Under the pieces are notes generated by a model that worked only from the letters and a program-made list of their open reading frames with translations, was not told where the DNA came from and did not search any database. The translations under genes and the position numbers were made by a program. This document shows positions 3,329-17,395 of a DNA stretch of 20,835 bases, in pieces (within the stretch, counting starts at the first letter, position 1; every line of letters starts with the position of its first letter). This DNA comes from a virus: positions 1-20,835 of IMG/VR virus record IMGVR_UViG_3300030109_004096. The stretch is one strand, 5' to 3'.

Positions 3329-3448
3329 TACTATTAATACTATTAATAGTACTATTATAGTACTATATAGTAATATTATAGTAATATATAGTACTACTCG
3401 CTATAACTATATATAGTTACTATAGTAATAAATAGTATTATATAGTAC
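3329..3448. repeat. Helically phased TAGTA/TACTA array
   Basis: TAGTA occurs at 3347, 3358, 3368, 3379 and 3389, a mean step of 10.5 bp, then TAGTT at 3414 and TAGTA at 3423, 3433 and 3443. TACTA, its complement, occurs at 3329, 3338, 3350 and 3361. A 16-bp perfect palindrome TAACTATATATAGTTA lies at 3404-3419 between the two half-arrays. The motifs therefore sit on one face of the helix. This could be a cooperative protein-binding site, a bend or an unwinding element. It lies just upstream of the leftward block. Confidence 0.75.
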
Positions 3449-3476
3449 CGCCAGAAAAATGAAGTAAGTAATCCCA

Positions 3477-3491: not shown

Positions 3492-3691
3492 CATACTTCT
3501 CTCCTACCTAATATTTCTAAAAATTTTAAAAAAATTATATAATTATGTGCGTGTCTCTTTTATTTTGGCGGGCTCCCCCCCTAATCCCATTTCAGGTTGA
3601 GATTTTGAGATTGAAAAAGCCATATTGAATTATATCTGGTTGCAATATCGGATCGGTTAACAGTGCCATGTGAAAATAATTTAAAATAAAT

Positions 3692-3722
3692 GGAACTTAT
3701 TAACCTTGCCGTGCGTATCAAT
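3692..3722 (+). promoter_or_regulatory. GGAACTT-class promoter of the first rightward genes
   Basis: GGAACTT lies at 3692-3698. Sixteen bases later comes GTATCAAT, a TAT..AAT-like -10 element, with TGC just before it as in an extended -10. It is one of six plus-strand copies and the nearest to the first rightward gene, 3900. Unlike three other copies it lacks TATGAA at +25. A long leader of about 180 nt would follow. Confidence 0.5.
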
Positions 3723-4910: not shown

Positions 4911-4920
4911 TAACCAAAAC

Positions 4921-4951
4921 AGGGGCGGTCTTCGGATCGCCTCTTTTTTTT
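4921..4951 (+). terminator. Strong Rho-independent terminator (UUCG loop)
   Basis: A 10-bp stem (4921-4930 with 4935-4944) is closed by a C(UUCG)G tetraloop and runs into eight T residues. It ends the first rightward unit and insulates the iteron region. Confidence 0.92.
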
Positions 4952-4976
4952 GTCTAATTTTAAATTTAATACCGCC

Positions 4977-5148
4977 AATTCACGTAACTAGATCAGCGCT
5001 AAAAACCATTTTATAGGCGCAATTCACGTAGCTAGATACTATTATATATATTATTCGGTCAATTCACGTAATTAACTATTAAATAACGTAAATTCACGTA
5101 ATTAGCTCTAATTTGGCTATTATAGAGAGATAATTCACGTAACTAGCT
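4977..5148. repeat. Five iterons AATTCACGTAryTArvT, candidate replication origin
   Basis: Seventeen-base direct repeats lie at 4977-4993, 5021-5037, 5061-5077, 5091-5107 and 5132-5148. All five share AATTCACGTA, then TA and a final T. Start-to-start steps are 44, 40, 30 and 41 bp, close to four, four, three and four helical turns. They occupy a gene-free gap between a strong terminator and a promoter. Iterons beside AT-rich DNA are typical of initiator-bound origins; a repressor operator array is the alternative. A replication-initiator-like gene lies at 10919. Confidence 0.85.
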
Positions 5149-5290
5149 TGTATTAGCTTAAATCAATAAAACGTGCTTAAAGGTATCAATTACCATTTAA
5201 TTATATTATATATAAATAAGCACTAACAAGAATAAAAACAAGGCGCGGTTTTTTATACTATTATTACATCTAAATAAATAAATATTAATT
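5149..5290. other. AT-rich segment beside iterons, possible unwinding element
   Basis: This stretch has long A/T runs, densest at 5185-5222 and 5255-5290, and no gene. Positioned directly after the iterons it could be the melting region of an origin. A short AAAAAC/GTTTTT hairpin lies around 5234-5253. Nothing else was seen. Confidence 0.4.
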
Positions 5291-5293
5291 ATT

Positions 5294-5333
5294 TTGGAAC
5301 TTTTATTGATTACGTGCATTTACAGGGTATGAA
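5294..5333 (+). promoter_or_regulatory. GGAACTT-class promoter before gene 5360
   Basis: GGAACTT at 5296-5302 is preceded by TT. The -10-like TTTACA begins about 16 bases later, and TATGAA lies exactly 25 bases after GGAACTT (5328-5333). Between the two boxes, GATTACGTGCATT (5308-5320) matches the inverted iteron core at 11 of 13 bases, so the iteron-binding protein might also control this promoter. Confidence 0.6.
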
Positions 5334-5359
5334 ACAAAATAAAATAAGGATTAAATAAA

Positions 5360-5569
5360 ATGAAATTAACTAAAAATAATATTGGTAAATCTTACTTCGA
5401 TCCCACAGTTAAAGGTGATCTAGTCGCAATTACATTTCAAAATATGAATAAAGGTTATTTAACAGGCAATATTGACATATGTAGTAATGGTGGAGAACCT
5501 CAAAAAATGTATGAAGTTGAAGGTATTGGTGAAGTATGGGAATGGTGCTTAGTTTGGATAAATAAATAA
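5360..5569 (+). CDS. Small phage-type protein (69 aa), unknown function
   Basis: The first gene after the iteron gap is preceded by AAGGA nine bases upstream. It begins MKLTKNNIGKSYFDPTVKGD and ends VEGIGEVWEWCLVWINK. The pattern 'IGK.F.DPT.KGDL...GY........YEVEGIGEVWEW.LV' is one I recall from small hypothetical proteins in several phages. The predicted fold is mostly beta strand. No catalytic motif is visible. It lies 19 bases before the next gene and is driven by the 5294 promoter. Confidence 0.75.
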   Translation: MKLTKNNIGKSYFDPTVKGDLVAITFQNMNKGYLTGNIDICSNGGEPQKMYEVEGIGEVWEWCLVWINK

Positions 5570-5588: not shown

Positions 5589-5813
5589 ATGACTATATAT
5601 AAAATAAAAGAGTTAACAAAAGAAACCGCACCATACTTTTTCGATAGAAAAACAATGAAGTTTTTCGGTCAAACTTTAAAGGATTTTACAGTTAAAAAAC
5701 AAAAAGATGGTAGGTATTTAATAACCGCACCAAGTAACGATTTTTATGGTAATAAAATGGATAAAACCATAAGATATTTTAACCCTAAAAATAATAAACT
5801 TGAATTTAAATAG
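5589..5813 (+). CDS. Small conserved phage-type protein (74 aa), unknown function
   Basis: The start has AAAGGATAATAAAATG, a ribosome-binding cassette used by many genes here. The core 'TKETAPYFFDRKTMKFFGQTLKDF.V' and end 'RYFNPKNNKLEFK' match, from memory, a short hypothetical protein common in phages of many hosts. It is basic and soluble with no transmembrane segment. Its role is unknown; conservation across phages suggests a general host-takeover or DNA-metabolism function, which is inference. The next gene starts 10 bases after its stop. Confidence 0.78.
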   Translation: MTIYKIKELTKETAPYFFDRKTMKFFGQTLKDFTVKKQKDGRYLITAPSNDFYGNKMDKTIRYFNPKNNKLEFK

Positions 5814-5823
5814 AGGTAACAAA

Positions 5824-6432
5824 ATGAACTTATTGACACAAAATAGTAAACTTAAAAAGACGTCTAAACATTTTAACAAGCGTGTATTTAATTTCGGTCT
5901 ACCTGCTTATAAATCTAGTACAGGCAAGGTAGTTTGTAGAATGGCAGATCAATGCATAAAATTTTGTTATGCTAAAAAAGGTGCTTATATATGGTCTAAT
6001 GTTGCACCTGCATTTGAAAAACGTCTAGAAATATCTATGCAAGATAATTTTATAGATTTAATGATAGCAGAAATAAAAAAGAAAAAAGTTGACTATGTAC
6101 GTGTACACGATAGCGGAGATTACTACGACAAAAGATATTTAGCTAAGTGGTTTAAAATAGCGGAATTATTACCGAATGTCAGATTTTATTCATATACAAA
6201 TGAAGTTGGTATGATTAAGAATTTAGAATCTATACCTAAAAACTATGATTTTATATTTTCTGATAGTGGTAAACAAAAAGACTTAATTAACAAAAAAACA
6301 GACAGACATACGAAAATATTTAGTAGTCTAGAAAATCTTAAAAAAGATAAATATACTAATTGTAGCGATTATGATCTATACGCTACTAAATGGTATAATG
6401 ACACTAAAAAAGTCGGTCTGATCTATCATTAA
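5824..6432 (+). CDS. GP88-family protein (202 aa)
   Basis: The best start is ATG 5824, which has TAGAGG eight to thirteen bases upstream; an earlier ATG at 5800 overlaps the previous gene and lacks one. Conserved features, from memory of the family: LPAY at 26-29, a cysteine set C38, C44 and C48 in a C-x5-C-x3-CYA..GAY arrangement, VRVHDSGDYY at 92-101, FYSYTNEV at 121-128 and a DRH at 160-162. These match the phage 'gene product 88' family first named in mycobacteriophages. The clustered cysteines suggest a metal or Fe-S site, but no activity is established to my knowledge. Length is somewhat short for the family; the C-terminal Cys region keeps only C180. Confidence 0.8.
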   Translation: MNLLTQNSKLKKTSKHFNKRVFNFGLPAYKSSTGKVVCRMADQCIKFCYAKKGAYIWSNVAPAFEKRLEISMQDNFIDLMIAEIKKKKVDYVRVHDSGDYYDKRYLAKWFKIAELLPNVRFYSYTNEVGMIKNLESIPKNYDFIFSDSGKQKDLINKKTDRHTKIFSSLENLKKDKYTNCSDYDLYATKWYNDTKKVGLIYH

Positions 6433-8528: not shown

Positions 8529-8942
8529 ATGCAGACATTTTTACCTTATGAAAGTTTTACCAAATCATTAGAAGTTTTAGACTATAAACGTCTAGGTAAG
8601 CAACGTGTAGAAGCGATGCAAATACTAAAAGCGCTACACATACCAAACTATGGTTGGAAAAACCATCCCTGTGTCAAAATGTGGCGCGGATACGATAATG
8701 CATTACGTGATTATATGAATAAAGCTATCTTACTATGGGTAGATAAAGGATTCAATAATACCATGCAATTACAACCAGTTAAACCAAATTACACACGTCC
8801 AGTATGGTTAGGCGATAAGAAACTACATATAAGCCATCAATCTAATTTATTAAAGAAAGATAGCGAGTTTTATAGTAAATATGATTGGAACGTATCCGAT
8901 GATATACCATACTATTGGTGCGGTTTTGGAAAAGGAGAATAA
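8529..8942 (+). CDS. Pyrimidine-dimer DNA glycosylase-like protein (137 aa)
   Basis: The protein begins MQTFLPYESFTKSLEVLDYKRLGKQRVEA and contains YGWKNHPCVKMWRGY (41-55), WLGDKKLH.SHQS (93-105) and a C-terminal DDIPYYW. This is the layout of the bacterial MSMEG_6728-type proteins, placed in the same Pfam group (Pyr_excise) as T4 endonuclease V. The T4 enzyme removes UV-induced pyrimidine dimers through its N-terminal threonine amine; here residue 2 is Gln and residue 3 Thr, so the activity is uncertain. AAAGGATAATATATG supports the start. It is the first gene behind the 8482 promoter. A repair role is a family-based inference. Confidence 0.8.
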   Translation: MQTFLPYESFTKSLEVLDYKRLGKQRVEAMQILKALHIPNYGWKNHPCVKMWRGYDNALRDYMNKAILLWVDKGFNNTMQLQPVKPNYTRPVWLGDKKLHISHQSNLLKKDSEFYSKYDWNVSDDIPYYWCGFGKGE

Positions 8943-10918: not shown

Positions 10919-11434
10919 ATGCAAAAGGTAATTAAATATCCATATATGATTAGTTTTCCAGATATAGATGAATCGCAGTGGACTACTTGGTTAATAAAAT
11001 CTAAAGATGATGAGGATGAATTGTATAAAGTTTTACCAGAGTACTTTGGTAAAGAACCTAAGAATATAAGTAAATACAGGGCAAAACCTAAAGATGTTAA
11101 GATGGTAGAAGATTATTTTAAAGAAAAGAAGATTGTTGACCCGAAAGCAAATGCAGAATTATTTTATGCACACTATGAATCGGTAGGTTGGTTTCGCGGT
11201 AAATCAAAAATTAAGAACTGGCGGATGTGTATTAAGAACTGGGATTTTAAATCATCAGATGATAAGACAGAACAGGAAGCACAGTGGAAAATGGATACAA
11301 CTGGATTTTTTATGGGGTATTGTGATAAGTGCGGTAAGCTATCTTCATATAATAAATGGGAGATTAAAGAAGATTCTAGGTGTTGCAAGGCAAAAATATT
11401 AAAAAGAAGAAAAAGTGTGGAACTTTCTAGTTAG
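10919..11434 (+). CDS. Replication-initiator-like protein with C-terminal zinc ribbon (171 aa)
   Basis: Residues 58-110 (PKDVKMVEDYF ... AELFYAHYESVGWFRGKSKIKNW) closely follow the 'P.lEEV..Y......  .E.FY.HY...GW..GK..ikdW...v..W' block at the C-terminus of phage replisome organisers and DnaT-like initiators. That block is the main basis for the call. A CxxC (C135, C138) and a CC pair (C155, C156) suggest an added zinc ribbon, which is unusual. The N-terminal part (WTTWLIKSKDDEDELYKVLPEYF) is unrecognised and lacks an obvious winged-helix motif. There is no strong ribosome binding site. It could bind the iterons at 4977-5148; this link is inference. Its last bases contain a GGAACTT promoter. 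Confidence 0.68.
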   Translation: MQKVIKYPYMISFPDIDESQWTTWLIKSKDDEDELYKVLPEYFGKEPKNISKYRAKPKDVKMVEDYFKEKKIVDPKANAELFYAHYESVGWFRGKSKIKNWRMCIKNWDFKSSDDKTEQEAQWKMDTTGFFMGYCDKCGKLSSYNKWEIKEDSRCCKAKILKRRKSVELSS

Positions 11435-12287: not shown

Positions 12288-12507
12288 TGTGTACATAGAC
12301 TATTGTCCAACATGTACCACAGATAAAGACGACCCTATCTATCTAAAAACATATGGGGAAGAATATAAAGAAATAATGTCATCCACCGTTAAAATGGATT
12401 GGTTCATGAAATGTCCGAGGTGTGAACAACTGTTTGACGGTGGTGATCTTTATGTAGAGAGGAATAATGGATATAAAAGCAGAAGTAGTATTGAAAAACA
12501 TTCGTAA
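12253..12507 (+). CDS. Zinc-ribbon-like protein (84 aa)
   Basis: Two CxxC pairs, C18-x2-C21 (YCPTCTTD) and C54-x2-C57 (KCPRCEQLF), indicate a zinc ribbon. The basic end (NNGYKSRSSIEKHS) overlaps the next gene. The start overlaps gene 12090 and lacks a good binding site, so coupling to the upstream gene is likely. Function unknown; such proteins often bind nucleic acid. Confidence 0.65.
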   Translation: MLNDNKEIVEFDVYIDYCPTCTTDKDDPIYLKTYGEEYKEIMSSTVKMDWFMKCPRCEQLFDGGDLYVERNNGYKSRSSIEKHS

Positions 12508-12685
12508 AGAAGTTCAGAAAATACGCGATAAAAATAGAAAATTAAAGAACCATCCCTATGCGGAAAATACAATGGTGATGGTAGGTCTATTAAGGTCTAT
12601 TGAGATAGTACAGGAGTTACGAGATCAAGAGATGGAGAAATTAATAGATTGGAATAATGAACAGAAAGAGTTAGTTTCTAACTGA
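12467..12685 (+). CDS. Unknown helical protein (72 aa)
   Basis: GAGAGG shortly before the ATG supports the start. The protein is helical, with a coiled-coil-like first half (NIRKEVQKIRDKNRKLKNHP) and an acidic second helix (SIEIVQELRDQEMEKLIDW). No family was recognised. A hairpin (TTCTAAC 12676-12682 with GTTAGAA 12691-12697) spans its stop codon. Confidence 0.65.
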   Translation: MDIKAEVVLKNIRKEVQKIRDKNRKLKNHPYAENTMVMVGLLRSIEIVQELRDQEMEKLIDWNNEQKELVSN

Positions 12686-12799: not shown

Positions 12800-12818
12800 A
12801 AAATTGATTGGAGAGATG

Positions 12819-13055
12819 ATGTTAAATAAAAGTAAAGTACAGGAAGAGTTTCATAATTATGGAATTCAGATTAGCCGATCAACGGTGCGATCTATAAATG
12901 ATTTTATATATAAACTAGTTCGGTTCACTATTAAGAATGCGGTAGACAATAAAGTAAAACGCATTACCAAAAACAATTTAAATAATTTAATAGCTTTAAA
13001 AGATATAGATCAAATAGTTGAATTCAATTCCACAGACCTGAAAAACGATGATTGA
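12819..13055 (+). CDS. Possible histone-fold protein (78 aa)
   Basis: ATG 12819 has GGAG five bases upstream; the ATG just before it is too close, and an upstream TTG at 12804 is unlikely. The layout fits a minimal histone fold: helix 1 (VQEEFHNYG, 7-15), a loop with IQISRST, a long helix 2 (VRSINDFIYKLVRFTIKNAVDNK), loop KRITKNN and a short helix 3 (LNNLIALKD). Compared with archaeal HMfB, the helix-2 pattern and the K/R-x-T-K-x-x-[LI] loop line up, with a gap in loop 2. Single-fold histones are known from bacteria and some viruses. It could compact or mark phage DNA. Pattern recognition only; a small helical protein of another type is possible. Confidence 0.55.
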   Translation: MLNKSKVQEEFHNYGIQISRSTVRSINDFIYKLVRFTIKNAVDNKVKRITKNNLNNLIALKDIDQIVEFNSTDLKNDD

Positions 13056-17357: not shown

Positions 17358-17395
17358 GGAACTTTTTTTTGTTCTACTAGTATAAGTAGTATGAA
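17358..17395 (+). promoter_or_regulatory. GGAACTT-class promoter before gene 17432
   Basis: GGAACTT at 17358-17364 is preceded by TTTTTT and followed by a T-run. TATAAGTAG begins 16 bases later and TATGAA lies exactly 25 bases downstream (17390-17395). It drives the last rightward gene. Confidence 0.62.

Follow-up and report, generated by a model that had tools for sequence, protein, structure and literature searches.

Iteron-type theta origins commonly, though not universally, contain DnaA boxes, and helical phasing of their repeats is usual rather than defining. At the iteron origins covered by a review (PMC5043065), the iteron-bound initiator opens an AT-rich segment, possibly with help from DnaA, and opening is favored by a promoter that points away from the origin. 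Compared with the iteron plasmid origins (P1 oriR, F ori2, RK2 oriV, pSC101, and R6K gamma; PMC5043065), the locus studied here shares direct repeats of ∼17 bp, an adjoining AT-rich segment, a nearby promoter and—in sister phages only—DnaA boxes. It differs from them in that the array lies in a tailed-phage genome without a recognizable Rep gene, that its spacing is irregular instead of following whole turns, and that the subgroup under study has no DnaA boxes. With the phage lambda origin and its O-protein iterons, it shares repeated initiator sites, an AT-rich segment, nearby transcription, and a dependence on the host replisome, which we propose here. Yet in lambda the repeats are inverted and lie within the O gene (PMC5043065), whereas ours are direct and lie in a noncoding gap, and no O or P homologue was recognized, which places the locus outside the lambda type.

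In this study, we analyzed a 20,835-bp record of an uncultivated virus (a viral fragment, here called the window) and argue from its sequence that positions 4921 to 5340 probably serve an uncultivated marine tailed phage as a replication origin of the iteron type, one in which the iterons are exchangeable. A repeat search found five direct repeats on the plus strand within 4977-5148, where a sequence-only reading had placed them: AATTCACGTAACTAGAT (4977..4993), AATTCACGTAGCTAGAT (5021..5037), AATTCACGTAATTAACT (5061..5077), AATTCACGTAATTAGCT (5091..5107), and AATTCACGTAACTAGCT (5132..5148), at steps of 44, 40, 30, and 41 bp. This is more than the three direct repeats of an initiator-sized site that we took as the minimum for such an origin. 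The core AATTCACGTA is identical in all five and the following five bases are nearly so. The pattern AATTCACGTAACTAG, with up to three mismatches, matches six times in the window, five of these being the array repeats, compared to a mean of 1.03 and a maximum of 4 matches in 100 dinucleotide shuffles. In the part of the literature that our search covered, we found no earlier description of a AATTCACGTA array. The proposal that the repeats are spaced by whole helical turns was not supported: the mean deviation of the window's steps from multiples of 10.5 bp is 1.6, which random steps equal in 12% of cases (p=0.12), and for relatives' steps of more than 20 bp the deviation of 2.61 is the random expectation. 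We count this lack of phasing against the origin reading. Over 35 distinct spacing patterns, the steps fall into 13-15, 25-44, and 48-56 bp, those of the relatives including 13, 25-32, and 36-39 bp; a single lineage comprises the window and its closest relatives, in which most steps are near 42.

The gap at 4911-5359, between two rightward genes, contains no convincing gene, and the terminator with a UUCG tetraloop is real, with folding placing a hairpin at 4921-4944 (−18.1 kcal/mol, z −4.96) that together with its T-run (4921..4951, plus strand) ends the upstream transcript. The AT-rich flank was likewise borne out: a stability scan marks 5149..5280 as a low-stability segment and, judged by sequence stability, a candidate duplex-unwinding element. 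Immediately past the array, 100-bp segments rank with the weakest 0.5% that the window contains, and at the nine other arrays tested the equivalent segments are in the weakest 0 to 1.7%. The AT-rich segment is followed on the plus strand by a promoter-like element directed away from the array (GGAACTT-N16-TTTACA, 5296..5324), whose 16-nt spacing is constant at most arrays and whose GGAAC half we take to resemble the −35 boxes of ECF σ factors. The first gene downstream (5360..5569, plus strand, 69 aa in the list of open reading frames) is unlikely to encode a specific partner of the repeats because the gene at that position is highly variable between relatives.

AT-rich palindromes of the TATAGTACTATA type are clustered at 3329-3450, between the divergent TerS-side and early genes. 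One could argue that this cluster is the true origin and that the direct repeats are accessory: the least stable 100 bp of the window start there, at 3344, the cumulative GC skew reaches its minimum at 3593, ∼1.4 kb upstream of the array, and related clusters lie upstream of TerS in many relatives. We count both the lower stability of 3329-3450 and the position of the skew minimum against an origin at the array. However, the GC skew comparison that had been suggested as a check gives a sign change at ∼3.6 kb, at the switch in gene direction and not at the array, and because the sign of the skew follows gene direction here, it cannot locate an origin. Moreover, the exact DnaA boxes of sister phages are found at the direct-repeat array rather than at the palindromes, and such palindromes fit the control of divergent promoters, which is probably what the cluster serves. 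That replication starts at 3329-3450 thus seems very unlikely to us, and the array remains our preferred origin.

The same layout is present in about 50 other viral contigs from one uncultured group of ocean phages, whose large terminase subunits (TerL) are 75-98% identical to that of the window. In nearly all array loci, a small gene or DUF932 gene is followed by an intrinsic terminator (nearly all homologous arrays have a terminator-like T-run ahead of them), the array, ∼100 bp of AT-rich DNA, a GGAACTT-N16-TATA-like element, and a start codon, usually 160-270 nt past the array. The relatives carry 3 to 11 repeats per array, and in contigs having both array and TerL, the array is always on the opposite strand to TerL and ∼3 kb upstream of it. 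A pair-pattern search returned 36 stretches in viral contigs, most of them arrays of at least three copies, and a second pattern added more. In the consensus, (A/C)ATTCACGTA precedes a variable pair and TAG, and a T-rich TTTATA stands ∼10 bp ahead of the motif. With a third pattern and de novo searches, we also found the sister motifs GTTCACGTA, TGTGCACGTA, TATGCACGTA, and TCATGTACGTAT, and in several relatives with upstream DNA available, the de novo search found no array. No DNA match to the window was found among 50,697 phage records, isolate TerL proteins are less than 30% identical among the matches listed, and two early window proteins had no match in isolate searches. Bacterial genomes gave 36 scattered pattern matches in unrelated taxa, with no sign of a host. 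One 56,959-bp contig (L123, L124, and L069) appears to carry two TerL/structural sets, with TerL proteins 30% and 79% identical to the window's, and may be an assembly chimera or two phages joined together.

Our search for DnaA boxes provided the main reason for preferring an origin to an operator. Exact TTATCCACA boxes occur in the arrays of L051, L208/L212, L210/L223, L224, L225, and L227, which carry the repeat variants TATGCACGTA and GTTCACGTA; they lie between or directly after the iterons, all in iteron orientation, and some stand in tandem (TTATCCACAAGTTATCCACA) and adjoin the AT-rich segment. In a count covering 37 arrays, 17 of 24 exact boxes lie inside 11.7 of 431.6 kb (2.7% of the sequence), an enrichment whose p value of ∼1e-21 is inflated by related contigs, with at least three lineages involved (L051; L208/L212; and L210/L223/L224/L225/L227). 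With TerL 75-83% and TerS 46-49% identical, these contigs fall within the same phage group and mostly share the terminator, the AT segment, and the GGAAC promoter. Arrays built from the window's own type of repeat (33 patterns) contain no DnaA box, exact or with one mismatch, which we count against the origin reading.

The alternative is an operator or enhancer array, on which a phage regulator would control the 5296 promoter and the early genes that it precedes. In most relatives, the conserved promoter-like element does follow the last repeat at a distance of 123-250 nt. Array sites number one per genome except in G001, a 44,124-bp record with two (L024:888-1117 and L027:9695-9920, near its two ends), and there each array has its own promoter, with paralogous small genes (MKQSV...) behind both, as if array and gene had been duplicated together. 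Yet a regulator would act from far upstream, across an AT-rich block, on a gene that differs almost every time, and would leave the DnaA boxes of the sister arrays unexplained. In addition, the same promoter class stands without an array elsewhere between early genes, again on the early strand: the window has a strict copy at 17358 and looser ones at 3692, 6886, and 8482. Most contigs tested have more strict copies (GGAACTT, 16-nt spacer, and TATA-like box) than the mean of their shuffles. The contrast between one array per genome and several promoter sites, and the conservation of array and flanks while the first downstream gene changes, both argue for an origin, and we regard the operator reading as unlikely.

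A further argument for the origin reading comes from L045, a close relative with TerL 96% and TerS 90% identical to the window. Here, the terminator (92% identical) and the promoter (93%) are kept, whereas the array is only 42% identical and consists of seven TCATGTACGTAT-type iterons unrelated to the window's repeat; a scan for further arrays of this type matched the L045 contig itself and one 59,877-bp contig. An unrelated array between matching flanks suggests that the iterons are a replaceable cassette, the pattern expected, as far as sequence can tell, of iteron/initiator specificity groups. L045 also bears on the idea that the small terminase subunit binds the repeats as a packaging (pac/cosB) site. 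Such a site would suit the fixed position of the array ∼3 kb upstream of TerL and near TerS, as well as the many short contigs that stop just past it (L007, L011, L012, L018, L020, L022, L023, L109, L131, L142, and L149). These ends, however, are scattered over 0-600 nt and long contigs read through, which is most simply explained by assembly breaking where the conserved leader meets a hypervariable gene. Since L045 combines a nearly identical TerS and TerL with a different iteron, the small terminase is an unlikely binder, and we give a packaging site hardly any credence.

The protein encoded at 10919, put forward as a possible partner by the sequence-only reading, is confined to close relatives (five contigs counting the window) and absent from five near-complete genomes that share the window's repeat (G001 and G015-G018), and therefore is not a general partner; it matches PHROG families without function, and its AlphaFold model (pLDDT 47) is too poor to use. 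Of that reading, the candidate phage origin itself stands as the best explanation, on account of the sister DnaA boxes, the weak segment, the layout, and the iteron exchange, while this partner and the helical phasing fall away. No known initiator, helicase, primase, or polymerase was recognized among the proteins scanned against Pfam, PHROGs, and NCBIfam, a scan that covered part of the small proteins; we count the lack of a recognizable initiator against the origin reading, and the initiator possibly comes from an as yet undescribed protein family. Common to the group are an exonuclease (13048), a 141-aa protein (13785), a RusA-like protein (15747), the terminase, and a 152-aa protein (14890) that is SSB-like by context and has no family match. 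Two genes track the repeat type, 12467-12685 being present in 11/11 genomes with the window's repeat and 12804-13055 in 9/11, compared to 0/8 others for each, but this is confounded because the subgroup looks like a clade, and genomes of other repeat types have seemingly diverged homologues of 12467. The 83-aa product of 12804-13055, beside the recombination genes, is predicted to form a single histone fold (pLDDT 77.5), and the best structural matches of the model are the bacterial histones HLp and HBb and an archaeal histone (Z 6.1-6.8). Among the early genes of the window, 8529-8942 encodes a pyrimidine-dimer glycosylase-like protein (Pfam Pyr_excise, E 4.5e-19) and 5800-6432 a GP88-family protein (E 3.2e-34).

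Clustered direct repeats are also a feature of ParB/ParR centromere arrays, and the array might accordingly be read as a partition site for a ParB- or ParR-like protein of an extrachromosomal phage. ParB-like proteins are indeed encoded in G001 and G007 (L119:395-1423 and L122:11217-12110). However, the two differ in their best PHROG family, none was recognized in the window, and no ParA/ParM-like partner was recognized among the proteins scanned. The DnaA boxes and the low-stability segment point instead to replication, and a centromere is, in our judgment, extremely unlikely.

For an origin at the array, we propose a mechanism modeled on the reviewed iteron origins, with which the layout agrees (PMC5043065). 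A putative sequence-specific initiator would bind the directly repeated CACGTANNTA-type iterons, and the resulting complex would melt the adjoining AT-rich segment at 5149-5280; in sister phages, host DnaA bound to the TTATCCACA boxes would assist. Host helicase and polymerase may then be loaded and start replication, which we propose because no phage-encoded ones were recognized. The upstream terminator would keep transcription from entering the array, and the downstream promoter, directed away from it, could both add negative supercoiling over the AT-rich segment and express the variable early genes.

Where uncultivated marine phages begin to replicate their genomes is almost never known. 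The module described here provides a searchable signature—terminator, CACGTANNTA array, AT segment, and GGAAC promoter—for a phage group represented by dozens of marine contigs; it predicts where a peak in read depth should lie and points to a putative initiator. More broadly, and as a tentative idea that we hold possible rather than probable, a widespread group of marine phages without replisome genes of their own may use plasmid-like iteron origins whose specificity is swapped as a cassette and read by an initiator of an undescribed family, the window's subgroup having given up DnaA boxes. Iteron exchange among phages that are otherwise near-identical would then show origin specificity evolving by swap and, if this is true, iteron alleles would define replication compatibility groups between coinfecting phages.
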